DNA of 61,621 nucleotides from Verrucomicrobiota bacterium (lineage in GTDB: Bacteria; Verrucomicrobiota; Kiritimatiellia; SS1-B-03-39; UBA6053): the NCBI GenBank assembly GCA_020831625.1, contig JAFIGD010000030.1, forward strand, positions 1-61,621, given 5' to 3'. Below are positions 13,795 through 52,311 of the stretch, piece by piece. A program made the position numbers and the translations under genes. Each line of letters begins with the position of its first letter. Within the stretch, counting starts at the first letter, position 1. Below the pieces are notes generated by a model that had not been told where the DNA came from, did no database searches, and saw only the letters and a list, made by a program, of their open reading frames with translations.

Positions 13795-16653
13795 ATGATT
13801 TTGGTGTACGAACTTCTGGAACCCCGCAACAACGCCCTCTCCGTGCAAATCTACGGCATGGAAATTGAGGAAGGACTGCCCATGCGCGGCACCCGCTATC
13901 CCGCCCAGCCGCAACGCCTGCTCGATAAAGGCATGTCCGGACTCACCCTCAGTAAGCAGGACCGCAAAATCCTCCTTAATATGATCATACAAGGCCAGAC
14001 CGGCAGCGCCCGGGCCGTTTTCCGCGGCCGCGACGCCCACCGCCTGATCGAACTCCTCATCCAAACCGGACGCGCCTACGCCTGGAATCACCCCGAAAGC
14101 CCTCTCGCCTTCGAACCCCGTCCCGCCAACGCACCGCTTGCCTGGAAAACCGCCGACATTGGCTTTGCCCCCACCGTCCGGCTCCCCGGGGATTGCAGCC
14201 TTCTCCCCGCCAAACCGATGCTCCTGCTCCACAGCCCTTCAGGCGTTTGCCAACCGCTCGGCCCGCCCGAACTCGACGATGCCGCCTGGGCCTGGCTCAC
14301 CACCCCGCCCATGCCCGAAACCGCCGTCAACCGCTTTTTTCAAACCCTGACCGACCGCTATCCGCACGCCGGACTTCCCCCGCCCCCCTCCCTCGAACAT
14401 GTCGTCCTCAATCACTTCGACCCCGTTCCCGGCCTGCACATCCATCTCGTGCCGGCCGACCGCGAAGACCGCTTCCTTGCCGAGCCCCTCTTCTATTACG
14501 GCGATAAAACCTTCCCACCCGCCACCAAAACCGAACGGATCCGTTTCCTCTACGAGGACCAGCTCGTGGAGGCTCCCCGCATGCTCGGCGCGGAACAGGC
14601 CGCCCTCGGCACCCTGGAAGAAAACGGAATGACCCCCTGCGCCGCCCCAAGCGCCGGGGATCTCTTCTCCGCCTCCAAAACCCAACGCGGCTGGGAGCCC
14701 GTGCAGCCCCTCACCTGGACCACCTTTTTCACCGAAACCACAAACACCCTCCAGTCCAAAGGCTGGCGGATCACCTTCGAACACAACGCCCAACCCCACC
14801 TCCCCTCAAAAGAAGACGGGTACGCCGAGTTCACCGAATCCAAACGCGGCTGGATGAGCTTCGAACAGGGCGTCCGCATCGATGGCAAGCCCGTCAACCT
14901 CCTTCCCGCCCTCCACGCCTTCCTCCAGAGCCGCGCCAAACACAGCCTCGACGACATCCGCGCCGAACTCCGCGCCAACGACGTCCCCGTCGCCACCCCC
15001 GAAGGCCTCGTCCTCATTCCCGGCCCCCGCTTCCTGCGCATGGTCGAACAGCTCCACGAACTCTTCGGAGCCGGTGCCCTCGACGCAAACAACCGCCTCC
15101 GCCTCAATCCCTGGCGCGCCGCCGAAGTTGCCGAGGGCACCCCCGGCAACTGGACACCCCCCGAAGAACTCCGGCAGGCCCTCCACCACCTCCGCGGCGC
15201 CCTCACCCTCGAACCCCTCGCCCCGCCGCCCGCCTTTCAGGGCGAACTCCGCGCCTACCAGCAGCGCGGCCTCGCCTGGCTCAACTTCCTCCGCCAAACC
15301 CGCCTCGGCGGCATTCTCGCCGACGACATGGGCCTCGGAAAAACCGTCCAGCTCCTCGCCCTCCTCGCCCTGCAGGCCGAAGAAAACCCCGACCACGAAC
15401 CCGTCCTCATCGTCTGTCCCGCCAGCGTCCTCCCCAACTGGCGCCGCGAATGCCGCCGCTTTACCCCCCACCTCAACATCGCGGTCATGCACGGAGCCGA
15501 CCGCCACGACGACCGCGCCCGCATCGAATCCGCCGACATCCTCCTCACCACCTACACCCTTCTCTGGCGCGACCAGACCTTCTACGAGCAGGTTCCCCTC
15601 TCCATGCTCATTCTCGACGAGGCCCAGGCCGTCAAAAACCCCAAATCCCGCGGCAGCCGCGTCGCCGCCTCCCTCAACGCCCGCCTCAAACTCGCCGTCA
15701 CCGGCACCCCCTGCGAAAACCACCTCGGCGACCTCTGGGCTCTCTTCCACATCGTCCAGCCCGGCTTTCTCGGCGGCGAAAAAGACTTCCGCACCCACTA
15801 CCGCAAACCCATCGAGCAGGAAGGCCGGGGCGCCCTCCGCAGCGCCCTGCAGAACCGCATCCGCCCCCTCCTCCTCCGCCGCACCAAAGACCTCGTCGCC
15901 CGGGATCTGCCGCCCAAAACCGAAATCATCGTCACCATTCCCCTCAGCGAGGTCCAGACCGATCAATATCAGACCATCCGCTCTGCCATGAGCGAAAAAA
16001 TTCAAACCGAAATGGCCGCCAAAGGCCTCAACCAAAGCCGGTTCACCATTCTGGACGCCATGCTCAAGCTGCGACAGACCTGCTGCGACCCGCGCCTCCT
16101 GCAGCCCGAACATCCCTACACCCTGCCCGACGACTCCGCCAAACTCGCCCACCTTATGGAGATGATTCCCGAACTCATCGAAGAGGGCCGCCGCATCCTC
16201 CTCTTCTCCCAGTTCACCTCCATGCTCGACCTCATCAAACCCGAACTCGCCAAACAAAAAATTCCCCATGTCGAAATCCGCGGCGACACCCGCGACCGCG
16301 ACACCCCCGTCCAGCGTTTTCAGAACGGCGAAGTCCCCCTCTTCCTCATCAGCCTCAAAGCCGGCGGCTCCGGCCTCAACCTCACCGCCGCCGACACCGT
16401 CATCCACTACGACCCCTGGTGGAATCCCGCCGTCGAGGCCCAGGCCACCGACCGTGCCCACCGCATCGGCCAGGACAAGCCCGTCTTCGTCTACAAGCTC
16501 ATCACCGAAGGCACCCTCGAAAACACCATCCTCGACATGCAGACCGAAAAACGCAAACTCGCCGGCCTCATCGAATCCGACGACACCTCCGCCTTCAACC
16601 TCACCCAAACCGACCTCCAGCGCCTCCTCGCCCCCCTCGACCTCGACGCATGA
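13795..16653 (+). CDS. SNF2-family helicase, copy A
   Basis: 952 residues. The first ~480 residues are the SNF2-associated region with no zinc-finger motif visible. The ATPase core follows: LADDMGLGKTVQLLALL near residue 512 (Walker A), LILDEAQAVKNP near 607 (DEAQ), LAVTGTPCEN, then the C-terminal helicase half with LLFSQFTSMLDLI, LISLKAGGSGLNLTAADTVI and ATDRAHRIGQ near 888. Such RapA/HepA-like proteins translocate on DNA and remodel protein-DNA complexes. Its stop overlaps the ATG of a dead fragment of SNF2 gene B by 4 bp. That shows A and B once formed a coupled pair, now separated by 31.5 kb. Confidence 0.92.
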   Translation: MILVYELLEPRNNALSVQIYGMEIEEGLPMRGTRYPAQPQRLLDKGMSGLTLSKQDRKILLNMIIQGQTGSARAVFRGRDAHRLIELLIQTGRAYAWNHPESPLAFEPRPANAPLAWKTADIGFAPTVRLPGDCSLLPAKPMLLLHSPSGVCQPLGPPELDDAAWAWLTTPPMPETAVNRFFQTLTDRYPHAGLPPPPSLEHVVLNHFDPVPGLHIHLVPADREDRFLAEPLFYYGDKTFPPATKTERIRFLYEDQLVEAPRMLGAEQAALGTLEENGMTPCAAPSAGDLFSASKTQRGWEPVQPLTWTTFFTETTNTLQSKGWRITFEHNAQPHLPSKEDGYAEFTESKRGWMSFEQGVRIDGKPVNLLPALHAFLQSRAKHSLDDIRAELRANDVPVATPEGLVLIPGPRFLRMVEQLHELFGAGALDANNRLRLNPWRAAEVAEGTPGNWTPPEELRQALHHLRGALTLEPLAPPPAFQGELRAYQQRGLAWLNFLRQTRLGGILADDMGLGKTVQLLALLALQAEENPDHEPVLIVCPASVLPNWRRECRRFTPHLNIAVMHGADRHDDRARIESADILLTTYTLLWRDQTFYEQVPLSMLILDEAQAVKNPKSRGSRVAASLNARLKLAVTGTPCENHLGDLWALFHIVQPGFLGGEKDFRTHYRKPIEQEGRGALRSALQNRIRPLLLRRTKDLVARDLPPKTEIIVTIPLSEVQTDQYQTIRSAMSEKIQTEMAAKGLNQSRFTILDAMLKLRQTCCDPRLLQPEHPYTLPDDSAKLAHLMEMIPELIEEGRRILLFSQFTSMLDLIKPELAKQKIPHVEIRGDTRDRDTPVQRFQNGEVPLFLISLKAGGSGLNLTAADTVIHYDPWWNPAVEAQATDRAHRIGQDKPVFVYKLITEGTLENTILDMQTEKRKLAGLIESDDTSAFNLTQTDLQRLLAPLDLDA

Positions 16654-16730
16654 AAACCCTTTCCCTTGACGCCATCCAATCCTGCACCCTTCCCGCCTAT
16701 TTCGAGGAGGGCAAACGCTGGTTCGACACC
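16647..16730 (+). repeat. Left copy of 84-bp direct repeat flanking the island
   Basis: Matches 48301-48384 at 82 of 84 positions in the same orientation. The differences are T/A at 16667 and C/T at 16724. Covers the start codon and first 27 codons of SNF2 gene B. Acts as the left boundary marker of the inserted segment. Confidence 0.9.
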
Positions 16731-16784
16731 CTGCACATCCCCCAGGTGCTCAACCTGCCGCCCGAGTCATGTCGTCATCCCTAA
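16650..16784 (+). pseudogene. Truncated 5' fragment of SNF2 gene B
   Basis: An ATG overlapping the stop of copy A starts 27 codons (MKTLSLDAIQSCTLPAYFEE and on to WFDT) identical in protein to the start of the intact gene at 48304. Then the sequence jumps to LHIPQVLNLPPES, which matches VHISQVLNIPPED found about 140 codons further along gene B. The join falls at a GACAC shared by both places in gene B (48379 and 48790), suggesting a microhomology deletion. After that the frame runs out at 16784, inside the end of the GntR gene on the other strand. The second part is more diverged (roughly 30 of 39 bases) than the first (82 of 84), so a mosaic origin or a related paralogue is possible. Confidence 0.85.
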
Positions 16785-17879
16785 ATGTAAAGAGCCTTTC
16801 AGATAAAAAATATTTTCATCAGAGTGCCTGTTTTTTGCAAGGTCATGAACTAATTGGAACGTCCTTTTCCCAATCTCCAAAAAAGGCAGTTTATATGTAG
16901 TGAGCTCTATTGAATTATCAGCTCCCGTGGCAGGCAAATAACCTCCGATTCCGGCGATTTTCATCGCTTCAGGAATCTTAATGCCTCTTTGTTTTGCAAC
17001 ATCCAGACAGCCCAAACCAATGAAGTCATCTGCACAGAGACACCCGTCGGGCAATGCATCAATGTGGTCAAACCATCGGCCCGCCAAACGACGGACACCC
17101 TCCAGCGGATGATCGAAGTCGGGCTTAATCTCAGGCACCTGAAGAATATGCGCCTGATGGAGCTCCAACCCTGAATCCTGCATGGCTTTTTTGTAGCCCA
17201 TGTACCGGTCCCGTATATTAATCGACAGCGAATCATTGCTGATAAAACCGATGGTGCGGCATCCCTTGTCGACCAAATGACGCGTCATGGTATAGGCGGC
17301 ATCAAACGCGTCCCCGATCACGGACGGAATATTCACGCCCGGAAGCGAGTTCTCCGCCAGGACCACCGGGCAGGGGCATTTCAGCAGGGCTTTTTCAATT
17401 TGATGCCGCTGGTCCACATTCACGATCAAGGGGTAGACAGCGACCGCCCGGACGTTAAAGTCGGTAAGATGGTTTAAAATCTGGGCCTCTTTTTCAAAAT
17501 CCGATCCCACGCTCAAAAGCAGCGTTCGGCGTCCAACCGATTGTGCCGCTTCATTAAACCCGCTGACAATCTGCCAAATTCCGGGATGATGTTCTCCCGG
17601 ATAGATGAAGGCGAAAGCGTTCAGATTGTGTTTTGCCGGTACCGGAGCTCCCGTCCTCTCCACCACTTTGGTGCCCACACGCGGTCTGCGCTCCACAAGG
17701 CCCAAATGCACCAGACTGGCCAATGCTTTACTCACAGTTCCGCGGCTGACCGCCAATTCCTCCGCCAACTCTGATTCCGTGGGCAAACACTCCCCCTGGG
17801 GATAAATCCCGCTTTCAATGCGCTCCAAAAGCATCTCCCGGATAGCATCCACTTTTAGCTTAGACCCTGATTGATTCAT
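16767..17879 (-). CDS. GntR-LacI hybrid transcriptional regulator (AraR-like layout)
   Basis: 370 residues. Residues 1-75 are a GntR winged helix: REMLLERIESGIYPQGECLP, TESELAEELAVSRGTVSKAL, LVHLGLVERRPRVGTKV. Residues ~85-365 form a LacI/periplasmic-binding-protein sensor: FAFIYPGEHHPGIWQIVSGF, AAYTMTRHLVDKGCRTIGFI, LPDGCLCADDFIGLGCLDVA, MKIAGIGGY. This arrangement is that of AraR, a sugar-responsive repressor. It is the last gene of the long minus-strand array and its stop overlaps the dead SNF2 fragment at the island edge. A half-site resembling the island palindrome lies 12 bp upstream of its start, suggesting autoregulation. Most likely controller of the island. Confidence 0.88.
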   Translation of the reverse strand: MNQSGSKLKVDAIREMLLERIESGIYPQGECLPTESELAEELAVSRGTVSKALASLVHLGLVERRPRVGTKVVERTGAPVPAKHNLNAFAFIYPGEHHPGIWQIVSGFNEAAQSVGRRTLLLSVGSDFEKEAQILNHLTDFNVRAVAVYPLIVNVDQRHQIEKALLKCPCPVVLAENSLPGVNIPSVIGDAFDAAYTMTRHLVDKGCRTIGFISNDSLSINIRDRYMGYKKAMQDSGLELHQAHILQVPEIKPDFDHPLEGVRRLAGRWFDHIDALPDGCLCADDFIGLGCLDVAKQRGIKIPEAMKIAGIGGYLPATGADNSIELTTYKLPFLEIGKRTFQLVHDLAKNRHSDENIFYLKGSLHLGMTT

Positions 17880-17890
17880 GACTTATGAAT

Positions 17891-17905
17891 ATTGAAACAT
17901 CAAAT
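17891..17905. promoter_or_regulatory. Half-site resembling the island operator, upstream of the GntR-LacI gene
   Basis: Read on the minus strand, ATTTGATGTTTCAAT matches the first 15 bases of the palindrome at 32535 (ATTTGATGTTTAAAT) at 14 positions. The second arm is not preserved. Located 12-26 bp upstream of the regulator start codon, where it could mediate weak autorepression. Confidence 0.4.
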
Positions 17906-17936
17906 AGAAGTCAAATGAATTGAACCCGGCAGAGGA

Positions 17937-18959
17937 TCAGGGAAGAATCAGTGGGAGCACCTCCTCGAAGTTTTGGCAAACCGCATGGCAAAATCCGTCC
18001 ATACCGCCTGTAGACAGATTCCCGCCGGCGACACCGATTACCGGGAAACCGGCAAGGCGAAGAGCCATGACTCCCGCCCCGCTGTCTTCTATCCCCACAA
18101 CGTGATGCCGCTCTTCAAAAGGAATCCCCAGGCCCACCCGGGCGGCTTCGGCATAGAGCCAGGGATGCGGTTTGGGACACAACTCCCCCAGAGTGCCGGG
18201 TTCCCCCGGCCGGAGCGCATGGCCGGCAGTGATGATCGTGTCATAAAACTCGGCGGGATCGCCCAGTCCGAGGGTTCTGAACGCATCCAGTATTTCCGGC
18301 CAGGCTTTTTCATGTAATCCGGAGGTGACCAGCGCGATTTTGATAGTATGCGCTTTCAGGGTGAGAAGAAATTCCTTGATGCCGGGTGCGGGGCGGAACG
18401 CCCCGCGAAGTCCGCTTCCCTGAAGAACAGCCTCCATTTCAACACGGGTAACATGATAGTACCTGCTTCTGGCTTCCTCCACCGTTTTATGAGGGCAATA
18501 CGTTCGTATGCAATAGAGCAGGTGTTCGGAAACAGAGTGACCGGATACAAAGGGCAGGTCTTCCGGTTTCAGGGCAAAACCGGGATCTTCAAGCAGCAAC
18601 GCCATGGTTTTTTGGATAATTCCAATCCAGAAGGCCTCACTGTGAACGGTCGTGCCGTCCAAATCCATCAGGACTGCTTTGATAGGCTTTTCCAACCGGA
18701 CGGAATGCAGCGGATAATAAGCAGGGTATCCCAGCTTGGAGCGGACATGCGCCAAAACCTTCCCGCTGCGAAATGAAACAAACTCAATCGTCCGGTCCGG
18801 CGTGCGGCGAACAGAAACAACCTCCGGATCCCGCAGCGCGAAAAGTCCATCCGCAGTTTCCGCCAGGGCCTCCAGGTTCTCATGCGGCAAAACGTCCGGT
18901 TCAAATGCCTTGCCGGGCGGTTCACCTTTTGCCAACGGGTTAGAGTTCCGGGGAGTCAT
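17937..18959 (-). CDS. HAD-superfamily phosphatase/phosphomutase with N-terminal extension
   Basis: 340 residues. HAD motif I is VLMDLDGTTVHSE (Asp99 nucleophile, Asp101). Motif II is IALVTSGLHEK, the conserved Lys region is CPKPHPWLYAEAARVG, and motif IV is VVGIEDSGAGVMALRLAG. The cap region follows motif I, as in beta-phosphoglucomutase-like and sugar-phosphate phosphatases. The first ~90 residues are an extra domain without recognised family, ending just before motif I. The start overlaps the stop of the ROK-like kinase by 4 bp, so the two are made together. A kinase-HAD pair suggests phosphorylation of a sugar followed by isomerisation or dephosphorylation. Substrate unknown. Confidence 0.82.
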   Translation of the reverse strand: MTPRNSNPLAKGEPPGKAFEPDVLPHENLEALAETADGLFALRDPEVVSVRRTPDRTIEFVSFRSGKVLAHVRSKLGYPAYYPLHSVRLEKPIKAVLMDLDGTTVHSEAFWIGIIQKTMALLLEDPGFALKPEDLPFVSGHSVSEHLLYCIRTYCPHKTVEEARSRYYHVTRVEMEAVLQGSGLRGAFRPAPGIKEFLLTLKAHTIKIALVTSGLHEKAWPEILDAFRTLGLGDPAEFYDTIITAGHALRPGEPGTLGELCPKPHPWLYAEAARVGLGIPFEERHHVVGIEDSGAGVMALRLAGFPVIGVAGGNLSTGGMDGFCHAVCQNFEEVLPLILP

Positions 18960-20362
18960 ATCGATTTCAGGGCGGGAAGACTTGCGGCGGCGACAGCCTG
19001 ACCCACACGGCGGAATCTCTCATCCGGCACATGCAGGGTGATGGAATGGCGGGAATCCCCAAACACCCTGTCTAAAACAGAGCGGGCGGTCTCAAGAATT
19101 GTTTCTCCCCCCGCTCCGGACAGGACCCTTCCCAATAACAGCACATGCTCAAAATCGAGATAGTCCCGGTAAAGAGGCAGGCTGTATCCCAGACAGACCC
19201 CGATGCTTTCAAAAATGCGCAGGGCATCCGGGTCCGCCTTGTCCGCAAGCACCTGCACCGCCCGCAAACGCTCTGGCAAAGGCATCTCCCCGGGAAAATG
19301 AAGACCCGTCCTTGGAGCCAGACGCGCCACGGCCTGCTGGGAAAAGTACTGGGCGCCGCAACCGAGGTCCCGGGCAATCGGCTCTTGTGCGGCCTCCGCC
19401 GAAAGATCGACCGGAACATAGGCCAATTCATGATAATTTCCGGTAAACCGGCATTCACCGTTCACAAAACCGGCCGCCTCGCTCGATCCCATCGCAATGC
19501 CCAGCAACGGGGCGCACCCGAGCGACATTGCGCCCGCCAGAGCTGTCACTTCTCCGTCATTCATTACTTCCAATGGAACTCCCCACTCTTTTTGCAGATT
19601 GAGAAACAGGGGTTCGACCCGGCGTTGAAAATCATCCGGAGGCACCGCACGAAACAGGGAGGCAACTTTCACCCGGTTGGCAACATAGGCCCCGGCAGCA
19701 CTGCCCCCAATGGCATCCACACGTGGAAGATGTTGAGCGGCAAGCTTAAGCCCGGCGCGAATTCGCTCGATATGGTACTCCGGATTCGATTCGCGGCCGG
19801 GATCCCAGGGAATTTCCGTGGTGAATACCGGTTCACCCTCTTTCACCGCGGCCAGCTTGTAGTCACTCGCGCCAAGATCGAACCCAATGCGGCAGCCGTC
19901 GAGATGGCCTCCCTGTGACAGACTCAGGGTCCGGGCGGGAGGCAGATCCGATTCCAGAACACGGTTCACCTCAAAAGGCTGTTCATACACCGTCTGCATC
20001 CGGATGACATCGGCCGCCCTTTCTCCCCCGCAGGAAAAAACGCTCTGCAGGTCCCCGCACAGTCTGCTTGGACCAGACAGACTGAGCCGGGTTCCGCCAT
20101 GAATCCAAAGCAGACTCTTCACCTGCCGCTCCACGTACCGGAACATGTCCGGATCCTTTCGACCCTCCGATCCGGGAATACGTAAACTCCGGCGCACCAC
20201 CACCCCGTCCGCTCTTTCGAGGGCGATATGGAGTGTTTGAGCATTTTTAGAATGCCGCGCAGCGTTCTCGATGCGCCGGTTTTCCAACACCACCGGACGG
20301 AAACCGGGGTCGAGGGGAACCGGAATGGGCGGCATGTTTTCAGAAGTCGAATGGATATTCAT
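18956..20362 (-). CDS. ROK-like ASKHA sugar kinase with unusual N-terminal domain
   Basis: 468 residues from the ATG at 20362; further upstream starts run into the neighbouring gene. Residues ~1-150 have no recognised family. From there an ASKHA core is seen: CRIGFDLGASDYKLAAVKEG (phosphate-1 loop with Asp, Gly and Lys), AIGGSAAGAYVANRV, VMNDGEVTALAGAMSLGCAP and LGIAMGSSEAAGFVNG (comparable to the ROK NDANAA and GTGVGGG blocks), and HVLLLGRVLSGAGGE near the adenosine site. The ROK zinc motif CxCGxxGCxE is absent and the catalytic Asp position reads NDGEV. Probably a sugar kinase of a divergent family, coupled by an ATGA overlap to the HAD gene. Confidence 0.65.
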   Translation of the reverse strand: MNIHSTSENMPPIPVPLDPGFRPVVLENRRIENAARHSKNAQTLHIALERADGVVVRRSLRIPGSEGRKDPDMFRYVERQVKSLLWIHGGTRLSLSGPSRLCGDLQSVFSCGGERAADVIRMQTVYEQPFEVNRVLESDLPPARTLSLSQGGHLDGCRIGFDLGASDYKLAAVKEGEPVFTTEIPWDPGRESNPEYHIERIRAGLKLAAQHLPRVDAIGGSAAGAYVANRVKVASLFRAVPPDDFQRRVEPLFLNLQKEWGVPLEVMNDGEVTALAGAMSLGCAPLLGIAMGSSEAAGFVNGECRFTGNYHELAYVPVDLSAEAAQEPIARDLGCGAQYFSQQAVARLAPRTGLHFPGEMPLPERLRAVQVLADKADPDALRIFESIGVCLGYSLPLYRDYLDFEHVLLLGRVLSGAGGETILETARSVLDRVFGDSRHSITLHVPDERFRRVGQAVAAASLPALKSI

Positions 20363-20393
20363 ACTAGGCCTTGAGACATGGAAGTTTTTGTGT

Positions 20394-21914
20394 TCATCGG
20401 GCAACCCAGATTGGACTGGACCAGGCCCATTGACGGTTCCACTGTTCCACCCGCACGCGATACACATCGTATCCATTGCCAAGCGGTTCACCGCCGGCCC
20501 GGTCGATTCCCGCCGTTTGAACTTCATACTGATCCGCCGTGGCGGCGGTCAGGCGGAACGCCGGTGTCCCATACCCGCCGATATAACTGCTCCGGGCTCC
20601 GGAAAGGAGCTCACTGAGCGGAAACGAAGTCAAACGTCCATTCACCTCCACTTCGATATGTGCATGCACGGGCATCTCCACTTCGAGAGAAAACCCCTGG
20701 TTGCTGTTGGTCACGGTGGTGCTGTTCCCCCGGGTCCGGGTATGGAAAGACACGGTGCGGCCGTCCTCCTGTTTCCAGGAGGAATAAGAGAACTCCTCCT
20801 CCGTTCCGTCCGGGGAAACGGTTTCGCTTCCCTTGAAACGGGGTTCCGCCGCCAATATCTCCCCTTCCCCCAGCCCGAAGCGGACCCGCCAGTCCACCGG
20901 CCGTCCCCGGGAGCCCCAGCCCACCTCCAGATTGACTTTGGCCCGAACGATGCCGGAGCGGGGACCCTCCCCGTCCGCGACAACCGGCCAGTACCGTTCC
21001 AACACCTTCTCATTTTTCAGCAGTTCAATTCCACGAATCGCCCCGCCGGCTTTGACCGACAGATTGAACTGCCGGGATTCAGACGACGTTTCGATGACGG
21101 AACCCGTGGGCGCGTCATTCAACGAAAAAAGGAGTTCGACATTGTCGCCGGTAAGCGCAACCGTTCGGCGGTTTTGTATCGCCTCCCAGATTGCGTGGCG
21201 GGTAAGCGACGCCGCCAGCACCGCGACCCGCCCGTGTCCGTGACTGCCGGGATGGGCACTGTGGTGGTCGGTGGAGGCGGTCACGCCCACAACATGGCCC
21301 ATTTTCAATCCGGCGCTGTAGGTGCTGTCCACATCGCAGGGTCCCATGGAGTGGAGGTAGGGATATGGAGAATGGTCCCCTTCGCTGCAACCATGCATGG
21401 AGAAAATTTCAACCACAGGGCTGACTTCACTGGAAAAGTTCCGCCAGTTAATCCCCCGGTAACCCTGCTTATAGCCAATATGGTGGGGGAAGCACATCGC
21501 CGCCACGCCCCGGCGGTTCAGTTCGGTCAGAGATTCACGAAGGGCCGTCACGTCAGGCGTATCCAGAATCCGCCCCTGTCCGTCCCGGTACATGACCGTT
21601 TGATCCCCGTCCGCGCAGGAATGCATTTCGTAGCCAAGAAAACTGACAAATTCCCCATCGCGGTTTGCCGAATCACTCTCTTCACAAAAAGCCTCCCAGC
21701 CGGACGCCAGTTTTCGGAACCCGTCCTCGTGATAACGGATCCGCCGCTCCATGCCCGGCTGATTGCGGGGCATGTCCGGCCAGAGTCCGTGTCCGGTCAC
21801 GGAAACAAAATCCAGTTGCATCCTCGCGTTGGCCAGTGCCTCCCGGAGAGAGCCATGACCATAACTGGCCCCGCAATGACTGTGAATATCCCCATAATAC
21901 GTTTTCAGCTTCAT
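20394..21914 (-). CDS. PHP/DUF3604-type metal-dependent hydrolase
   Basis: 506 residues without signal peptide. A PHP-superfamily metal site is readable: YGDIHSHCGASYGHGSLREA, LDFVSVTGHGL, CFPHHIGYKQG, VVEIFSMHGC and GVTASTDHHSAHPGSHGHGR give the His, Asp and Glu ligands in the usual order. The C-terminal ~170 residues look beta-rich (GIELLKNEKVLERY, YSSWKQEDGRTVSF) and may be an accessory domain. PHP enzymes hydrolyse phosphoesters or other bonds; this branch (DUF3604, CehA-like) has no settled reaction. Its start overlaps the NagB stop by 4 bp. A hydrolytic step on a phosphorylated or modified sugar would fit the operon. Confidence 0.75.
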   Translation of the reverse strand: MKLKTYYGDIHSHCGASYGHGSLREALANARMQLDFVSVTGHGLWPDMPRNQPGMERRIRYHEDGFRKLASGWEAFCEESDSANRDGEFVSFLGYEMHSCADGDQTVMYRDGQGRILDTPDVTALRESLTELNRRGVAAMCFPHHIGYKQGYRGINWRNFSSEVSPVVEIFSMHGCSEGDHSPYPYLHSMGPCDVDSTYSAGLKMGHVVGVTASTDHHSAHPGSHGHGRVAVLAASLTRHAIWEAIQNRRTVALTGDNVELLFSLNDAPTGSVIETSSESRQFNLSVKAGGAIRGIELLKNEKVLERYWPVVADGEGPRSGIVRAKVNLEVGWGSRGRPVDWRVRFGLGEGEILAAEPRFKGSETVSPDGTEEEFSYSSWKQEDGRTVSFHTRTRGNSTTVTNSNQGFSLEVEMPVHAHIEVEVNGRLTSFPLSELLSGARSSYIGGYGTPAFRLTAATADQYEVQTAGIDRAGGEPLGNGYDVYRVRVEQWNRQWAWSSPIWVAR

Positions 21915-29064: not shown

Positions 29065-29085
29065 CGAAAACACCTCATAAGGCTA

Positions 29086-32364: not shown

Positions 32365-32448
32365 TTCCTTTGTCTCCTTTGTTACCTTGTTGTATTCGGC
32401 CCCTCAGTATAAACATCCAGGTGGCGATTTGTCATGTAAACGCGAATC
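32335..32448. repeat. Duplicated sulfatase-GH42 junction, copy 1
   Basis: Resembles 44291-44395 in the same orientation, with a 9-base length difference in the spacer. Shared blocks include TTCATTTCCTTTGT, GGCCCCTCAGTATAA and TTGTCATGTAAACG. It covers the first ten codons of the GH42-like gene, its leader and the last codons of a vanished sulfatase gene. Confidence 0.8.
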
Positions 32449-32532: not shown

Positions 32533-32534
32533 TC

Positions 32535-32557
32535 ATTTGATGTTTAAATGATCAAAT
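32535..32557. promoter_or_regulatory. Palindromic candidate operator upstream of the GH42-like gene
   Basis: Inverted repeat ATTTGAT, nine bases, ATCAAAT. Its reverse complement matches the site at 48179-48201 at 21 of 23 positions and shares 15 consecutive bases with 41810-41824. It lies 171-193 bp upstream of the GH42-like start codon. AraR-type regulators bind ATTTGT-like half-sites, which fits the island's own GntR-LacI protein. Binding is inferred. Confidence 0.6.
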
Positions 32558-32608
32558 AAATAACCAGCCGTTTTCTTTTGGATCTTTAATCATAAGCAGA
32601 GACAAGCG

Positions 32609-36416: not shown

Positions 36417-36458
36417 TTGTCTTTCTCTTTCAGGACACAGTGTAACGTGAACCTTCCC

Positions 36459-40769: not shown

Positions 40770-40821
40770 CGGGATCCAGTCGTTAAATTGAAGATTTGTG
40801 ATCTGAATAAACGGCGGACGC

Positions 40822-41772
40822 TTATTTCCGGCGGCGGAAGCGCGTCAAATAGGTGACCAGACCCGCGATGGCCACCAGGCCCAGCGTGCCCGGTTCCGGA
40901 ATCACGGTTAACACCAAATCCTGATTGTTGTTGTCCAGACTAAGCGTCCAGTCAAAACTCCCGCCGTTCAGCACCTCAAAGTTACTGTTGGCAAACGAAC
41001 CGGTGCCCGAGAACGCGCCGCTTTCAGTGTCCAGCCAGGTACGCAGAGAGCCTCCAATGGTGACGCCGGCATTGGGATTTGTAATCAGAGAATAGGTTTG
41101 CATCACCTCCAGATTCGCCAGATCCACCTGCAGGAGACCATCGAGAACGTTTTGGCCTTCGGATGCCCTGGTTGTCTGAAGAGTGGTCACCGAATCGGTT
41201 CCGAACTGGAACGTAATGACCCCACCCAACCTCAGGTCAATTCTCGGTGCCTGCAGGGTTGCTCCGGACTCCACCGTTAAAAAACTCCTGTTGGCAGGTG
41301 TATTCGAAGCACTGGTACTATGGCCAATTTGCAGAAATCCTGGGTCCAGACCGCCCGTTCCGTCATTGGTGATTGCACCTCCGGACCGCAAGGTCAGTGA
41401 TCCCTGATATGCGGCTCTCCCTCCTTGACCCACAATGACGTTTCTTGTTCTCAAGGTCCCCCCATCCGCTATCTCAACGTAGACCCGGCCAGAAGGATCG
41501 TTAGCAGCTTCAAAAGATTCAATACGCACCACGCCCATGGTCACGTTAAAACCCGAGTCCACAATGGCCGGATTGGCCGCGGTGGCATTGTCCAGGGTGA
41601 ACGAAGACAATTCATTACCAGCGACTGGAAACGTAGTCCAGTTCCCGGTTGTGGACCAGAGATTGTCGGCTCCTTCTCCTGTGAATATCACATTGTCGGC
41701 ATGCAGCGGCTGATACGCGGCAAGCAGAAGACCGCCTGCAAACAAAAGAATTCTGGAGGAATGGATGTTCAT
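40822..41772 (-). CDS. PEP-CTERM sorted surface protein
   Basis: 316 residues with signal peptide ending QPLHA. The body is beta-helix-like, rich in G, T and N, starting DNVIFTGEGADNLWSTTGNW, with VVRIESFEA, VIVGQGGRAAYQGSLTLRSG and FEVLNGGSFDWTLSLDNNNQ. The C-terminus VIPEPGTLGLVAIAGLVTYL plus RFRRRK is a complete PEP-CTERM signal for exosortase processing. It is probably an extracellular or exopolysaccharide-associated protein. It is a tandem paralogue of the gene at 41890-42747. A candidate operator (41810-41832) lies 38 bp upstream of its start. Confidence 0.88.
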   Translation of the reverse strand: MNIHSSRILLFAGGLLLAAYQPLHADNVIFTGEGADNLWSTTGNWTTFPVAGNELSSFTLDNATAANPAIVDSGFNVTMGVVRIESFEAANDPSGRVYVEIADGGTLRTRNVIVGQGGRAAYQGSLTLRSGGAITNDGTGGLDPGFLQIGHSTSASNTPANRSFLTVESGATLQAPRIDLRLGGVITFQFGTDSVTTLQTTRASEGQNVLDGLLQVDLANLEVMQTYSLITNPNAGVTIGGSLRTWLDTESGAFSGTGSFANSNFEVLNGGSFDWTLSLDNNNQDLVLTVIPEPGTLGLVAIAGLVTYLTRFRRRK

Positions 41773-41809
41773 AGCTTCACCTTGGGTTGGGGGTTGTCAT
41801 CATTTGTTG

Positions 41810-41832
41810 ATTTGATCATTTAAATGTAGTCC
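41810..41832. promoter_or_regulatory. Partial copy of the island palindrome upstream of the PEP-CTERM gene
   Basis: ATTTGATCATTTAAA is identical over 15 bases to the reverse complement of the 32535 site, but the second arm has diverged. Located 38-60 bp upstream of the start at 41772, a position suited to promoter control. Confidence 0.5.
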
Positions 41833-41889
41833 CTGCTGACAGTCAAGGGTTATTTTGGAAAATTTTTATCTCGCGTTTCCCAGCAGACC

Positions 41890-42747
41890 TCAGGGATGAA
41901 TCACCAAAACCAGATCCCGCCGGTTCCGCTCCAACCGGAGCGTCCACCGGTGCTCGCCTCCGTTGAGCACTTCGAAATGCTCATGAGTGAAGGATCCCCG
42001 TCCCGAAACCGCGCCGTTGTTTGCCTGAAGCCATTCCGACAGATATCCGCCAATCGGAAGATGATTCACCTCGCTGCGGATGAGGGGATATGTTTTCGGG
42101 GTGTTAAGTTTGGCGAGATCCACCTGCACGCGTCCGCTTAAACGGTTTTCATACCCGCGGTCTCTGCGGGTGGTGTGGATGGGGGTCACACGGTCGGCTC
42201 CAAACTCAAAACGCAGCATCCCTCCGGCCCGCAGCTCAATCAAGGGCGCCTGAACCAGCCGTGCCCCGTCCGACAGAATTAAAAAACTCGGGTGCTGCGG
42301 GTCCCCGCCGCCGACTTGCAGCATCCCGATCCCCTGAAAGCGGTGTTCGATGGCACCTCCGCGCAGCACCCGCAGCGAACCCTGATACGCCGGACGTCCG
42401 CCCTGCCCGACAAAAACACTGTGGGCCCGCAGGGTCGCCCCCTCTGAAATGTCCACGTGCACCCGTCCGGGAACAGGTGCCGAACCCATAAAGGACTCAA
42501 TCCGCACCACCCCCAGTTCGAGATCAAAATCCGGATCGAGAATTGCGGGATTTCCCTCAGGGGTTTTGTCCGCGCGGAAGCCCTCAATCTCCGCCATTGC
42601 ACCGGGGAAAGGATCCCAATTCGCGGGATTCGACCAGAGGTTGTCCGCCCCCGCTCCGTTAAACATCACCTCCTCGGACACCGTCAGGGCGGGAACGGTC
42701 AGGATGCCGAGAGCAAAAAGAAATTTTATAAGACGGGATGTGTTCAT
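41890..42747 (-). CDS. Paralogue of the PEP-CTERM protein without its sorting signal
   Basis: 285 residues. Signal peptide MNTSRLIKFLFALGILTVPALT, then a body clearly homologous to the next gene (ADNLWSNPANWDPFPG, GVVRIESFMGSAPVPGRVHV, VFVGQGGRPAYQGSLRVL, FEVLNGGEHRWTLRLERNRR). The protein stops at LVLVIHP, just where the paralogue reads LVLTVIPEPG. One base out of frame the DNA still encodes IPE before diverging, so a frameshift probably removed the PEP-CTERM tail. It may now be released rather than anchored. The start overlaps the upstream sulfatase stop by 4 bp. Confidence 0.8.
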   Translation of the reverse strand: MNTSRLIKFLFALGILTVPALTVSEEVMFNGAGADNLWSNPANWDPFPGAMAEIEGFRADKTPEGNPAILDPDFDLELGVVRIESFMGSAPVPGRVHVDISEGATLRAHSVFVGQGGRPAYQGSLRVLRGGAIEHRFQGIGMLQVGGGDPQHPSFLILSDGARLVQAPLIELRAGGMLRFEFGADRVTPIHTTRRDRGYENRLSGRVQVDLAKLNTPKTYPLIRSEVNHLPIGGYLSEWLQANNGAVSGRGSFTHEHFEVLNGGEHRWTLRLERNRRDLVLVIHP

Positions 42748-44225
42748 GGCGTATGCTCCTTGGCGGAAGGTTCGGGTGTCATGCGTTCTCGAAAATAAGC
42801 CTTCACTTTTTCAGGGGAAATATCCGGCTGTTTGATTTGCGGGGCGGTTTCATCCACGAGGGTTTCATACCCCCCGGAGTGCTCCCTGTCGAACTGTTCC
42901 GCCTTTTCCCGCAGTTCCTCAATCACCGGCTGACAGGCCGGATCGTGCAGACGGTTTTTCTGTTCCAGGGGATCCGCAGTCAGGTCGAAAAACAAGTCCT
43001 CACACATTCCCCCGTTCAAGAGCAATTTATGATTCCGGGTCCGGATCATGCTGCGCCGCCCGCTGCCGGCCTCGCAAATCACCTGCGGCCTTCCCCGGGG
43101 GGTTCCCCGGATCGGAATACCCTCCATCGAATCCGGAACCTCAACCCCGGCGGATGTCAGAATCTCGGTGGTCACATCCACACTGCTGAACAGACTGGAA
43201 CGGACTCCGCCCGCCTGATCGCCGCCGGGATATTTAATGAACAGCGGCACCCGGGCCAGCGGGTCATACAAATGATTGCTTTTCAGCAGAAGGTGATGGA
43301 AACCCATATACTCGCCGTGATCGCTGTTCACAATGATCATCGTGTCTTCATAAAGGCCCTGATCTTTTAGAGAGCGGATCAATTCCCCAATTACCTGATC
43401 AATATGACTGATCGACGCATAGTAGGCGGCCATCACGTGCCGGAGGGTGTCCTCCGTCAAATCCCGGTTCGGGAAAAAGCCTTCATTCAGGCACGCATCC
43501 ACATCCGCCAGCGTGTCGGTCCATCCCGGGAGCAGGGTCAAGGCACCGGGATCATATCGGTCCAGAAAGGATCGGGGGGGATCAAAAGGGTGGTGAGGCT
43601 TGATAAAGCTGACCATCAGCAGATTGGACTCCCGCTCATTCCAGTTTGAGAGGGCTTCCATGGCTTTGCGGCCGATCCAGGCAGTAGAGTGAAAACGGTC
43701 GGGCAGATTGGAGGCTTTGGCTCCGCAGGAGGCGTGGTAGTCGGCATTCGCCCCGGCACGGAACTCCTCCACCTGGTCGATCAAATCGTTTTCATCCACC
43801 AGGCCCTCCCGCATCAGCTCCGTATGGTAATCGTCCTCCCAGCGCCCGGGTCCATTCTGTTCGGCCAGACACATGCGTTGAAACCCCACGTCCAGATAGG
43901 TGGGCGTGAAATGCATTTTTCCCACCGCCGCCGTTTTCCATCCCGCCCGGGCAAGCGTTTTGGGAAAGGTGGGAATCTCCGAACGGAGGGTGCAGTGGTT
44001 GGACCATCCGCCGTGGCGGGAAACATACTGACCGGACAAGAAGGAATACCGGGAGGGTGTGCAGACCGGATGCGTGCAAAAGCAGTTGGTATAGCGCACG
44101 CCGTCCGCAGCCAGTGCGTCCATCACCGGTGTGTGCACATCCTGATTGCCATAGGCGCCCATACAGTCCCATCGATGCTGGTCTGTCTGCAGAATTAAAA
44201 TGTTTTTGGCTTTTTTTTCAGTCAT
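42744..44225 (-). CDS. Sulfatase (type I)
   Basis: 493 residues. N-terminus KNILILQTDQHRWDCMGAYG, signature CTPSRYSFLSGQYVSRHG with Cys55, metal segment MIIVNSDHGEYMGFHHLLLK and SNHLYDPLARVPLFIKYPGG with the conserved basic residues. It removes sulfate from a carbohydrate. No signal peptide. It overlaps the 41890-42747 gene by 4 bp downstream and the relic GH42 start upstream. Composition is more GC-rich than the sulfatase at 44351. Confidence 0.92.
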   Translation of the reverse strand: MTEKKAKNILILQTDQHRWDCMGAYGNQDVHTPVMDALAADGVRYTNCFCTHPVCTPSRYSFLSGQYVSRHGGWSNHCTLRSEIPTFPKTLARAGWKTAAVGKMHFTPTYLDVGFQRMCLAEQNGPGRWEDDYHTELMREGLVDENDLIDQVEEFRAGANADYHASCGAKASNLPDRFHSTAWIGRKAMEALSNWNERESNLLMVSFIKPHHPFDPPRSFLDRYDPGALTLLPGWTDTLADVDACLNEGFFPNRDLTEDTLRHVMAAYYASISHIDQVIGELIRSLKDQGLYEDTMIIVNSDHGEYMGFHHLLLKSNHLYDPLARVPLFIKYPGGDQAGGVRSSLFSSVDVTTEILTSAGVEVPDSMEGIPIRGTPRGRPQVICEAGSGRRSMIRTRNHKLLLNGGMCEDLFFDLTADPLEQKNRLHDPACQPVIEELREKAEQFDREHSGGYETLVDETAPQIKQPDISPEKVKAYFRERMTPEPSAKEHTP

Positions 44226-44320
44226 TGCCTTTTCTGTACGTTGTCTGGTCTGATAGTTAAACCTTCATTATATTTATGAACCGTCTCAAGCGTGAGTTCA
44301 AACAATATCCCTTTCTTCAT
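44222..44320 (-). pseudogene. 5' remnant of a GH42-like gene
   Basis: Directly behind the sulfatase at 44351, with the ribosome site AACAAAGGAA, an ATG opens 32 codons starting MKKGILFELT. The intact GH42-like gene starts MKKRILVGLT, and the first 30 bases agree at 22 positions, as does the leader. After codon ten similarity is lost and the frame ends at a TGA overlapping the next sulfatase start. It is a relic of a second GH42 copy, the mirror image of the sulfatase relic at 32404-32532. Confidence 0.7.
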
Positions 44321-44395
44321 TTCCTTTGTTTCCTTGTGGTATTTGGCCCCTCAGTATAAGCTGCCGAGTAGCGACTTGTCATGTAAACGTGAATC
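44291..44395. repeat. Duplicated sulfatase-GH42 junction, copy 2
   Basis: Direct repeat partner of 32335-32448. Here the sulfatase side is intact and the GH42 side is broken, the reverse of copy 1. Confidence 0.8.
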
Positions 44396-45760
44396 CAACG
44401 GATGCTCTTGAAGCCATCTATTTAACCTGGAAAGCAGGTCCTCCACAATGTGTTGCATCCGCTCCTCCTTGAACAGGTTCGTTTTTTCTTCAGGATCACT
44501 CCCAAGATCATACAGCCCCCCATCCAGTAAGTCTTTATCGGACATGTTTAGCGAAAACGGCAACGTTACATCCATGCGATACGACGCGTGACGAACTGCA
44601 GCGCGGAAATGGGGCTCTGTCTCATCTGCGTATGCCCATTCCGGACGAATCGCACCAAAAGCAACCCCTCCTTCCCCCTCCGTGAATAAATCCCTCCCTA
44701 CCCATAGATCGGGAACAGAATTCTGTAAACCAAGGCATCCAAAAAGCGTCCGGGCAAGATCCACTTGTTCACAGATTCCATTACGTCGCTCTCCCTGGGG
44801 AACAAGACCCGGTCGCCAACAGATAAAAGGCACCCGCCATACACAATCGTCGAAGGTATCCTTTTCTCCAACACCCCATTCCCCCAACGATTTGCCATGA
44901 TCGGTTGAATAAACAATTAATGTGTCATCCAGAACATCTAAATTCTTCAGTCCGGCAAGCAGCCGCCCAACTTCATGGTCGACATACGAACACAAGCCCA
45001 TGTAATCGCGCCACATCTGGACTACCTGAGATTCCGACAGTTTGTCCATTCGGTCCTGCAACGCTTTTTTCCGATCATATTCCGGCCGCCCCTCACGCTG
45101 TGCTTTGTCAAACCGTCGAATAGGCAGTTCCTGCGCCTGGTAGGTATCCCCCCAAGGATCAGGGGGCAATACCGGCGTATGGGGAAAAAGATGATTCACT
45201 CGAATAAAAAACGGATGTGACCGGTCCATTGACCGAATAAACTCAAGTGCACGATCGGTGACATGAGTTGCCGGATTGTCCTTTACATCAGGATACCTGC
45301 CAGCAAGGATAATAGGTGCTCCGCCGGGGCGTTTAATGACGCGATGTTCTGCTTCATCAAATCCCTCCGGCAGCCCGTAGAATCCGATGTGCTTTTCTTC
45401 GATGACAAACACGTCATCGTGCTGCCACACCTCATGGCCCATGATATGCCGCTTTCCGAAGCTGGCTGTACAATAACCGCTATCTTTCAGTGCCTCCGGC
45501 AGTGATTTGTGTCCGTCCGGAGGAGAAAACGATAAGGCCCGGTTATGAAGACATCCGATTGCCTGGGGATAATCCACCCAGACTTGCGAAGAACGGCTTG
45601 GCACACATACAGGTGCCTGGCAATATGCGTTTTCAAAAACGGTGCCCTCTTTGGCCAAGCGATCAATGTTCGGTGTCTTCGCCCATTTCGACCCGTAACA
45701 ACCCAGAGAATCCACCCTCTGCTCATCAGTCTGTATCCATATTACATTCATCTTTCTCAT
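44351..45760 (-). CDS. Sulfatase (type I) with atypical signature tail
   Basis: 469 residues from ATG 45760 (or 45751). MNVIWIQTDEQRVDSLGCYG and CVPSR (Cys52) are intact. The usual xxxLTG part after the CxPSR core is replaced by SSQVWVDYPQAIG, so the second half of the standard signature is missing. Since the CxPxR core is what the formylglycine-generating enzyme recognises, activation should still be possible. LIVYSTDHGKSLGEWGVGEKDTF provides the second metal cluster, also slightly atypical. Low GC, like the GH42-like gene with which it was once adjacent. No signal peptide. Confidence 0.87.
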   Translation of the reverse strand: MRKMNVIWIQTDEQRVDSLGCYGSKWAKTPNIDRLAKEGTVFENAYCQAPVCVPSRSSQVWVDYPQAIGCLHNRALSFSPPDGHKSLPEALKDSGYCTASFGKRHIMGHEVWQHDDVFVIEEKHIGFYGLPEGFDEAEHRVIKRPGGAPIILAGRYPDVKDNPATHVTDRALEFIRSMDRSHPFFIRVNHLFPHTPVLPPDPWGDTYQAQELPIRRFDKAQREGRPEYDRKKALQDRMDKLSESQVVQMWRDYMGLCSYVDHEVGRLLAGLKNLDVLDDTLIVYSTDHGKSLGEWGVGEKDTFDDCVWRVPFICWRPGLVPQGERRNGICEQVDLARTLFGCLGLQNSVPDLWVGRDLFTEGEGGVAFGAIRPEWAYADETEPHFRAAVRHASYRMDVTLPFSLNMSDKDLLDGGLYDLGSDPEEKTNLFKEERMQHIVEDLLSRLNRWLQEHPLDSRLHDKSLLGSLY

Positions 45761-45772
45761 CCATTTCTCCTG

Positions 45773-47302
45773 TCAGGCAAAGGAGGGTCTGCTTTGCCAC
45801 GGGCCCGCAATCCCCATCCGATACCGGATCAGTTGCGCCGCCATCTGACGGATTCGAGTCTGCTGTTCCGAGTTCAATGCCACGTTGTTCATCTCATCCG
45901 GATCCTCCGTAAAATCATACAACTCCATCTCGTCACGTTTTTCCGCCAGTATGGAGTGGACACTCAACCGATGGGTCCGGGTAATCCAACTGTTCACGTA
46001 AAGACCCCGTTCAACACGGTGATCGATCAGCACTCCCTCGCGCAGATTCCGATTCGGCTCCAGCAATTCGGCAAGTTGATCCACCCCCTGCATGCGCGGG
46101 TGCGGATCAAGCCCCGCCGCCCTCATCAACGTTGCCGGAAGATCCACCTGACTGATGAGGCTGTCGCTGGATGATCCGGCAGGAATATGTCCGGGCCAGC
46201 GCATCAGCAGCGGAATCCGAACCGCCGCATCATAATGACTCCCCCCCTTGGACCACATCCAGTGATCCCCCATCAAATCACCATGATCTGAAAGAAAAAC
46301 AACCAGGGTGTTCCCGTCCAACCCCAGCTCCGCCAGTCGGTCCAGAATTTTACCGAACGAATGATCCACCATCGACTGCATGCCCATGTAAACCCGCCAC
46401 ATGCGGAGTTCCTCTTCGGAGCGGCCCGGACCGGTGGCCGAAGGCTCCAGATGCTGACAGGGCGGCCCCGCGTGATCGTGCCAGCCCAGCTCCTTCAGAC
46501 GTCCTTCGCGCGTCGCCCGGTACAAGGTGGTGCCGTTGTCCTCATCCCGGGTGCGCACCGGTTCGGGAGGCTCCGCATCCTCATGCAGGCTGCACCAGGG
46601 CTCGGGCACCACAAACGGCCGGTGCGGATCCGGAAAATTCACACTGAGAAAAAAAGGCCGGTCTTTATGCTCCGCCTGATGCCGCTCCAGATAGGCCAGG
46701 GTTTCCTCTTCCACCCATTTGGTCGGATGGAACGCCTCCGGCAGCGCCCACTCGCCCACACTTTGCCGGCCGTCCGGGTTTGTGTAAAAATAAGGTTCCC
46801 GGTCCGGAATCCCCCGGTCACGCAACCAGAGTCCGTAATGCATGGCATACGCATGGGGCTCGTGGGTGTGACCGATGCTGATTTTCGCCTCGTCAAATCC
46901 ATACCAGGGACCCTGCCAGTTCCGGAAGAAATCCCAGTCCCGCGAGCGGGGCGGTGCTTCAAAGCTCCCCGGAGTGCTTCCGGGCTGCAAATGACTCTTC
47001 CCGATCATTGCCGTGCGGTATCCCCCTTGTTCGGCCAACTGGCGGGGCAGAGAAACACAATCCTCGTCCAGGGCCGTGCCGATACTCCAGGCACCGTGAC
47101 GTGACGGGTACTGCCCCGTTACCAGCGTGGCCCGGGCCGGAGTGCACAAGGGACAGGCCGCGTAGGCGCGGTGAAACAAGAGCCCCTGCTCTCTGAATTG
47201 ATCCAGACGCGGCGTGCGCACCGGAACACGTCCCGCACACCCGAGCAAATCCGCGCGTTGCTGGTCCGTGGTCACAACTAAAAGATTCGGCGTTTTATTC
47301 AA
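45773..47302 (-). CDS. Sulfatase (type I), CTPAR variant, TTG start
   Basis: 509 residues. The frame has no ATG between the pseudopilin gene and the conserved start, so a TTG at 47302 (MNKTPNLLVVTTDQQRADLL) is used. The signature is CTPARATLVTGQYPSRHG with Cys53, with Ala instead of Ser in the core, a known functional variant. The metal cluster is LVVFLSDHGDLMGDHWMWSKG and GGSHYDAAVRIPLLMRWPGH follows. Probably acts on the same glycan. No signal peptide. It lies 12 bp upstream of the next sulfatase. Confidence 0.9.
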   Translation of the reverse strand: MNKTPNLLVVTTDQQRADLLGCAGRVPVRTPRLDQFREQGLLFHRAYAACPLCTPARATLVTGQYPSRHGAWSIGTALDEDCVSLPRQLAEQGGYRTAMIGKSHLQPGSTPGSFEAPPRSRDWDFFRNWQGPWYGFDEAKISIGHTHEPHAYAMHYGLWLRDRGIPDREPYFYTNPDGRQSVGEWALPEAFHPTKWVEEETLAYLERHQAEHKDRPFFLSVNFPDPHRPFVVPEPWCSLHEDAEPPEPVRTRDEDNGTTLYRATREGRLKELGWHDHAGPPCQHLEPSATGPGRSEEELRMWRVYMGMQSMVDHSFGKILDRLAELGLDGNTLVVFLSDHGDLMGDHWMWSKGGSHYDAAVRIPLLMRWPGHIPAGSSSDSLISQVDLPATLMRAAGLDPHPRMQGVDQLAELLEPNRNLREGVLIDHRVERGLYVNSWITRTHRLSVHSILAEKRDEMELYDFTEDPDEMNNVALNSEQQTRIRQMAAQLIRYRMGIAGPWQSRPSFA

Positions 47303-47358
47303 AGGATCAGGTTGGTTAATGTACGAATGCGCCGGAGCGTTACCGCCCCGGAAGAAAT

Positions 47359-48102
47359 CTAAATGTCCGGCGGGTCATAGGATACTCTCACATCCCATGT
47401 AGGCCCCCCCTCGACCCCAAACATAAAATTATAGTCAAATCGCCCACTAGCATTAATCGACTGCGTGAATCCGGTGTACGTCCGCACACTCCCGTCCACG
47501 AATGCGGCATTGACAATACGCCTCCCCTCCACCGTGTTAAAAAAACCCAGATCATTTCCGCCCCAGTCCCGGACCTGGTTGTACGCGACCTGCCGGTTGG
47601 GAAAACCAAAATCATACATGCGGACCGGACGCTCAATCAGCGTGGAAAAAACATTGAAGGCATGACGGAAGCGATACGAAACCTGAGCTCCGGGGGCATC
47701 GTTCCGCCGCCGGGCATCCACCCGTGGATCCAGAGGAGAATACACCACACTCAACAGATCCCCCAAAAAAGGTTCCAAAGCGGTTGGCCACCCCTCCATT
47801 GTCAGCTCAAAGCGTTGGTGCGCCCCCCCCGCACCTGTATTCGCCATGTAATTTCCGGGAACACCTCCAACTAAAAACAGACTCGGAAACTCTCCGCTGT
47901 TTTCCACCGCATAACTGTGCGTGGCGATAATGATATTCCGCAGGTTGCTTAAACAGGCTGTGGATCTTGCCCGGCGCACCGCCGAGTTCACCACGGGTGT
48001 AATCAGGCCAATCAACAGAACAATGATCGCGATGACCACAAGCATCTCAATCAGCGTAAACGCCTTTTTCCTGTTACCTTGTCTTGTGTTTTGGTCTGCC
48101 AT
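47359..48102 (-). CDS. Type II/IV pseudopilin-like protein with N-terminal methylation motif
   Basis: 247 residues. The short basic leader ends RKKAFTLIEMLVVIAIIVLL, the prepilin peptidase site (A/FTLIE) and hydrophobic helix of type II secretion pseudopilins. LSNLRNIIIATHSYAVENSG follows, typical of the PVC family with a DUF1559-like or GspG/H-like tail. The tail contains FNTVEGRRIVNAAFVDGSVR, resembling the H-x-G-D/VDGHV element of these proteins. It is the first gene of the minus-strand array and is followed by two sulfatases. The family is multi-copy in PVC genomes and its role is not established; surface display or secretion is a guess. Confidence 0.85.
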   Translation of the reverse strand: MADQNTRQGNRKKAFTLIEMLVVIAIIVLLIGLITPVVNSAVRRARSTACLSNLRNIIIATHSYAVENSGEFPSLFLVGGVPGNYMANTGAGGAHQRFELTMEGWPTALEPFLGDLLSVVYSPLDPRVDARRRNDAPGAQVSYRFRHAFNVFSTLIERPVRMYDFGFPNRQVAYNQVRDWGGNDLGFFNTVEGRRIVNAAFVDGSVRTYTGFTQSINASGRFDYNFMFGVEGGPTWDVRVSYDPPDI

Positions 48103-48160
48103 AACTCACCATACGGATGAAAGGATAGAATTTATCATGCCACAAGAATTAACACCTGTA

Positions 48161-48182
48161 AAATAATGTGTCAACATTATTT
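48161..48182. promoter_or_regulatory. Perfect inverted repeat upstream of the pseudopilin gene
   Basis: Arms AAATAATGT and ACATTATTT around GTCA, overlapping by four bases the palindrome at 48179-48201. It could be a second operator or part of the promoter region of the pseudopilin gene, 59 bp upstream of its start. Confidence 0.4.
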
Positions 48183-48201
48183 GATTATTTAATCATCAAA
48201 T
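48179..48201. promoter_or_regulatory. Palindromic candidate operator at the head of the island
   Basis: ATTTGAT, nine bases, ATCAAAT; the best-formed copy of the island palindrome. It differs from the reverse complement of 32535-32557 at two of 23 positions. Lies 77-99 bp upstream of the pseudopilin start and would control the first transcription unit of the array. Confidence 0.6.
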
Positions 48202-48300
48202 TAAAAGCGGTACTATGATGTTGGGTCAGACGCGACAAGCGGGGCGATTTGAAATGAATAAAGATTGCCTCTCCGTTCTGGATCCGTATGCAAAGCTCCC

Positions 48301-48384
48301 CGCATGAAAACCCTTTCCCTAGACGCCATCCAATCCTGCACCCTTCCCGCCTATTTCGAGGAGGGCAAACGCTGGTTTGACACC
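48301..48384 (+). repeat. Right copy of 84-bp direct repeat flanking the island
   Basis: Start of the intact SNF2 gene B; 82 of 84 bases match 16647-16730. Marks the right boundary of the inserted segment. Confidence 0.9.
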
Positions 48385-52306: not shown

Positions 52307-52311
52307 TTATT

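Follow-up and report, generated by a model that had tools for sequence, protein, structure and literature searches.

Integrative elements carry attachment-site direct repeats at both edges of a large accessory block. Other systems add or exchange genes by homology. In E. coli, Amarir-Bouhram and colleagues (PMC3240628) describe linear DNA that was trimmed into a homologous gene, religated and integrated by a single crossover; their pJA2/lacZ experiments yielded partial lacZ duplications of 109–950 bp in 14 sequenced clones. The same paper gives deletion of resident DNA as the predicted outcome of homology-facilitated illegitimate recombination. For Vibrio cholerae, this type of recombination was proposed to underlie the turnover of T6SS effector modules, leaving remnants (PMC5361080).

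The locus described here lies in a window of 61,621 nucleotides, the whole stretch of DNA that was analysed, which makes up contig C44 of a draft genome that totals 4.89 Mb over 111 contigs (Table 1). As in integrative elements, a direct repeat stands at both edges of a large accessory block, here a catabolic island; unlike in such elements, no integrase was found and the repeat stems from the start of a protein-coding gene, diverged between the copies, and is no attachment site. The locus resembles the E. coli pJA2/lacZ system (PMC3240628) in that the gene of homology is partly duplicated over a similar size (109–950 bp there; here 120 bp remain of 528 bp or more) without a site-specific recombinase, and differs from it in that a laboratory plasmid and a known event there stand against a 31.5-kb locus, diverged copies and reconstructed steps here. 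Apparently foreign genes at a homologous anchor, no integrase and displaced remnants of old genes are shared with the V. cholerae case (PMC5361080). Unlike the deletion predicted in PMC3240628 for homology-facilitated illegitimate recombination, sequence has been added here and gene B is whole. Such recombination combines one homologous and one microhomology junction; short shared bases do occur at the joins of the locus and could, but need not, mark a junction of the second type.

Table 1. Features of the 61,621-nt window, in order of position
Feature	Position	Strand	Description and basis
Gene A	13795..16653	+	SNF2-family helicase, 952 aa; Pfam SNF2-rel_dom, Helicase_C
Fragment head	16647..16730	+	First 27 codons of a B-type gene, ATG overlapping the stop of A; 82/84 identical to 48301–48384
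Fragment tail	16731..16766	+	B codons 165–176, in frame with the head past a 411-bp deletion; 29/36 identical
Catabolic island	16767..48258	-	18 assigned genes (16767–48102), every one on the minus strand; left edge is the regulator stop codon
GntR/LacI-type sugar regulator	16767..17879	-	Pfam GntR, Peripla_BP_3
HAD hydrolase, NagB-type isomerase, ADP-ribosylglycohydrolase family, GH38, sodium:solute symporter, two without Pfam match	17937..29073	-	Pfam, NCBIfam
GH42-like protein, GH78 rhamnosidase, sulfatase	29086..36416	-	Pfam
LamG/malectin protein, three sulfatases, two proteins without Pfam match	36459..47302	-	Pfam, NCBIfam
Pseudopilin-like protein	47359..48102	-	N-terminal methylation motif; Pfam, NCBIfam
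Inherited B upstream	48259..48303	+	45 bp conserved in congener G002; right edge of the island as far as the comparison shows
Right repeat copy	48301..48384	+	Start of intact gene B; 82/84 identical to the left copy
Gene B	48304..51456	+	SNF2-family helicase, 1050 aa; Pfam; 89% identity to G002
B stretch matching the fragment tail	48796..48831	+	Sequence comparison
6S RNA and tRNA-Thr	52129..52387	+	6S RNA 52129–52303, tRNA-Thr 52312–52387; same block after B in G002

A first-pass annotation of this stretch had reported an 84-bp direct repeat with 82 identical bases, an ATGA overlap of A onto the first 27 codons of B, and an internal deletion of the fragment joined at a GACAC. All three were confirmed. 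The stop of A overlaps the ATG of the fragment at 16650–16653, and the tail, which matches B 411 bp further on, keeps the frame of the head across the internal deletion; in the resident B, GACAC is present at both ends of the stretch that the fragment has lost. By-eye counting gave 56 bp as the longest exact run within the repeat. A chance origin of the tail match was ruled out, as its 29 identities exceed the maxima of 24 of 36 against 300 random 3,153-bp stretches of the same genome and of 23 when, in reverse, 300 random 36-mers were compared with B. Besides coding sequence, the fragment has only the three bases before the ATG in common with B, and its end meets the stop codon of the minus-strand regulator at 16767–16769. 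Short bases are shared at two joins, CGC at that between A and the fragment and GACAC inside the fragment. The C-terminus of gene A, which ends in LLAPLDLDA, is about as long as in seven relatives; A and B are paralogues with approximately 45% identity across their helicase halves. Sequence comparison supports the fragment as a relic of a B-type gene.

The orientation of the island opposite to A and B, also claimed earlier, applies to 18 of 18 assigned genes. Four of the 18 proteins have no Pfam family at the threshold used, one of which, encoded within 17937..29073, matched a CehA/McbA metallohydrolase below the cut-off (NCBIfam); the island encodes four sulfatases in all. No recombinase, transposase or integrase was detected among the 18 island proteins and the 17 other proteins of the window, A and B included (Pfam; NCBIfam for nine), in agreement with the first-pass annotation. 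An integrase-borne genomic island was rejected, given that this set held no tyrosine or serine recombinase and that the only tRNA of the window lies outside the island. Inside the island, two similar stretches (32336–32448 and 44292–44395; TTGTCATGTAAACGYGAATC core in common, 82% along their longest parts), one upstream of the GH42-like gene and one upstream of a sulfatase gene, might serve as binding sites of the island's own GntR/LacI-type regulator, which is a guess at their function.

The window contains further repeats. An intergenic repeat at 56378–56672 is dispersed and recurs many times on further contigs of this genome, with up to 96% identity among the matches listed; it includes a match to the Acido-Lenti-1 RNA at 56549–56594, and such a match also occurs upstream of B in the congener G002. 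A second intergenic repeat is found at 61375–61621 and 56679–56797 (95% between 61504–61621 and 56679–56797), with further places in the same genome and in another congener, G001, among the matches listed. Copies of a short repeat of about 35 bp at 2474–2539 are present on several other contigs of the genome.

Lower GC of the island had been pointed out in the first-pass annotation, and profiles of GC and codon usage were computed. The step at the boundaries is real, with 64.1% GC in the left flank, 56.0% in the island and 62.2% in the right flank, but it did not hold up as a foreign signature. The genome baseline amounts to a mean of 58.4% and a 1-kb median of about 59% (18 unmasked stretches, 290,317 bases, chosen by contig number and not at random; L118 and L121 were masked and left out). 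Relative to this sample, 1-kb windows of the island fall on average on the 33rd GC percentile and those of the left flank on the 80th. In pooled codon usage, the left flank is farthest from 126 genes of the sample (distance 0.089), followed by the island (0.071) and the right flank (0.052); the figure for the island is an approximation, as the plus-strand reading frames 20271–22046 and 21917–22888, picked by length, replace two assigned genes. GC3 of the island ranges from the 6th to the 39th percentile, on the low side yet within the range of the genome. The flanks, which are the GC-rich part, depart more from the GC norm of the genome than the island does. A foreign origin by composition was therefore rejected, as both GC and codon usage of the island are within the genome's range.

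At least eight relatives of the same family possess both orthologues (57–89% identity for B, 39–86% for A). In seven of these eight, the three congeners among them, A and B are on different contigs, and in the one-contig relative G008 they are 124 kb apart. Gene B was absent 3′ of A in all seven relatives read, over 1.6 to 6.7 kb past A, and the only B-like match in these stretches was A itself. This reading left out G009, in which A is truncated and matched over 703 of 952 residues, and genomes of other families with more distant A matches, e.g., G051, G085 and G086. Hence, the uninterrupted A–B pair with its ATGA, which had been presumed to be the inherited state, has no counterpart in any of the seven relatives. 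The best 80 of at least 591 relatives in a search with A were all distant, with best segments of at most 47% identity and no conspecific strain among them, in a search that may exclude records near the window's own genome.

In the closest congener, G002 (protein identity 86% for A and 89% for B), the two genes are on different contigs; that of A continues for 4.5 kb past the gene, and the next gene there was judged by eye, on its sequence, to be sulfatase-like. The match of G002 to the window extends from 48259 to 52390, that is, from 45 bp before the start of B through B, the 6S RNA and tRNA-Thr; upstream of 48259, similarity to G002 did not rise above that of shuffled sequences. Neither 6S RNA nor tRNA turned up next to B in the stretches searched of G001, G003, G004, G005 and G007–G010, where the G007 stretch (L013) holds only 268 bases after B, and among the genomes looked at, the B–6S–tRNA-Thr block is common to the window and G002 only. 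Neighbours of A and of B vary between species in the relatives read. Because G002 shares both the 45 bp upstream and this block, the context of the right-hand B is inherited; judged from these alignments, it is so on both sides, and the left fragment has the end of A only. This makes it unlikely that the fragment is the decayed original and B its copy, as had been suggested, since the inherited upstream sequence accompanies the right copy and is missing from the left.

Similarity to G002 ends at 52387–52390, at the 3′ end of tRNA-Thr, though the G002 contig has another 1.8 kb. In the window, GH92 and other genes come next, and this region could be a separate accessory insertion at the tRNA end.

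Looking for the same island elsewhere, as the first-pass annotation had proposed, we found no block-level DNA counterpart in 12 other genomes, the three congeners included (at most 23 candidate places scored per genome). Apart from the B-start repeat, these genomes contained single island matches only, with 64–92% identity and a longest match of 672 bp. As the three congeners are drafts of 88–96% completeness, absence of the island there is no proof. With the first half of the island, matches at E ≤ 1e-40 were obtained in 19 of 386 other genomes of the phylum (66–74%; at most two candidates scored per genome), all of them outside the family of the window; a congener visible among the listed genomes of that search, G001, was without a match. 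In 12 stretches from 11 genomes around some of the best island matches, a maximum of two island genes occurred together: genes 18956 and 20394 in G086, the NagB-type gene and 18956 in G007 and G008, and the HAD gene and 18956 in G056. Sulfatase matches were set aside in this comparison, being many, of 24–41% identity, and paralogues. Based on these searches, the island looks acquired, because no block-level DNA counterpart was found in the congeners searched, and looks composite.

The divergence of the fragment was estimated from 117 comparable sites. The fragment differs from its own B at nine sites, as compared with 23 between own B and G002 and 21 between the fragment and G002, and for this reason it may be read as a sister allele. 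The differences from own B are distributed as 2 of 81 in the head and 7 of 36 in the tail. Between own B and G002, 10 of 81 and 13 of 36 sites differ, respectively, with the same tail-heavy tendency, and because these local rates agree, the divergence of head and tail is consistent with a single allele. By-eye reading indicated that the fragment carries the G002 base at both head differences and that both are synonymous. One sister-lineage B allele or an old paralogue could explain both parts of the fragment, which with 117 sites is suggestive only.

We tentatively favour a scenario in which recombination independent of an integrase left the fragment as its scar when a circularised island with a partial B integrated by one crossover in B. 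The incoming DNA would have consisted of the island, the 45 bp that precede B and a sister-lineage B gene of which no more than the first part was present. Ligation of its trimmed B end to the regulator end would have created the join between fragment and regulator and closed the circle. If the recipient was then arranged as A–ATGA–B, one RecA-type crossover between the partial B of the circle and the resident B would integrate the island and give the order A, B start, B tail, regulator, rest of the island, upstream sequence, B start and rest of B. The 411-bp deletion would have arisen in the partial copy at the GACAC repeat. We infer the circle, the crossover, the sister-lineage donor and the A–B adjacency in the recipient.

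This single-crossover scenario is favoured because the left copy has the end of A and the right copy has G002-like upstream sequence, so that one context would be the recipient's and the other the donor's. It draws support from the lack of both a block-level island match in 12 genomes and a recombinase. As in Campbell-type integration, the direct repeat is part of a resident gene with one copy truncated. The ATGA join of the last codons of A to the start of B resembles a coupled gene pair and would be hard to obtain by chance. The scenario needs such a pair, which may have existed in this lineage alone, as the join suggests. Counting against it, the empty site A–ATGA–B was not seen in any of the seven relatives read, which include no conspecific strain, and neither an island-free empty site nor a donor was found among the genomes searched. 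Homology for the crossover is short, namely the present 84 bp and any sequence since lost to the deletion, and the evidence from divergence comprises 117 sites only. A ComEC-family protein was detected in 11 of 11 genomes searched (the window's own and ten others), which allows DNA uptake but proves nothing; it says little because such proteins are common (10 of 14 control genomes). Ku was found in none of these genomes (0 of 11), which makes Ku-dependent end joining unlikely, again without proof.

The main rival, which we consider rather unlikely, holds that B never stood beside A and that break repair at a rearrangement joining A to the regulator copied the 84- and 36-bp stretches of B at microhomologies, long ago. 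Such filler DNA would fit the lack of A–B adjacency in any of seven relatives, the inherited context retained by the right-hand copy and the few bases (CGC, GACAC) in common at the joins. Yet it makes a coincidence of a copy that starts within a few bases of the B start codon, of an ATGA that supplies the stop of A and of a tail in frame, and nine differences in 117 sites demand great age or a foreign template.

Improbable is the idea that a second complete B-type gene, a paralogue or xenologue, was once translationally coupled to A and decayed by deletion, while the island arrived independently beside it. It would account for the ATGA overlap, for the in-frame remnant and for a divergence older than that of a fresh copy, but leaves unexplained why one island should have the relic at one edge and the intact B at the other; moreover, around A in seven relatives, A itself is the sole B-like match. 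Still less probable, and by a clear step, is an assembly artefact, in which the assembler crossed between two places via the repeat. The draft state of the genome, with 111 contigs, and the 56-bp exact run would permit this, but ordinary reads can span an 84-bp repeat with two mismatches, and neither the join of A with the fragment nor that of the fragment with the regulator had a match running across it elsewhere in the window or in the genome it comes from (no more than 23 candidate places scored per genome).

Insertion of the island with target duplication, one of the two interpretations in the first-pass annotation, is hardly credible despite the direct repeat at both edges, because a simple duplication predicts the inherited upstream sequence at the left copy and none at the right, the reverse of what is seen, and because homology reaching at least 528 bp into B means that 84 bp was never the duplicated unit, quite apart from the divergence of the copies. 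Of the insertion as first described, the acquired look of the island, the absence of a mobility gene and the B-type relic stand. Transposition with target-site duplication was rejected on these grounds and because the scan of the 18 island proteins found no transposase; mutations acquired later could account for the nine differences in 117 sites, not for the length of B involved.

Whether it arose by the single crossover or from a copied stretch of B used as filler, the feature belongs to a known kind of recombination scar. It looks like an ordinary recombination event that added the island, rather than a new kind of mobile element. Repeats at the edges and a GC step should accordingly be compared with relatives and with the genome baseline before they are called an insertion signature. 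That in these sulfatase-rich genomes glycan loci enter repeatedly without mobility genes, anchored by homology beside housekeeping genes and each leaving a truncated 5′ gene scar, is a generalisation we regard as quite improbable; if true, donor and time could be read from each such scar. The locus itself would be one example of a large sugar-degradation locus that joined a genome without an integrase and left a scar that can be read.
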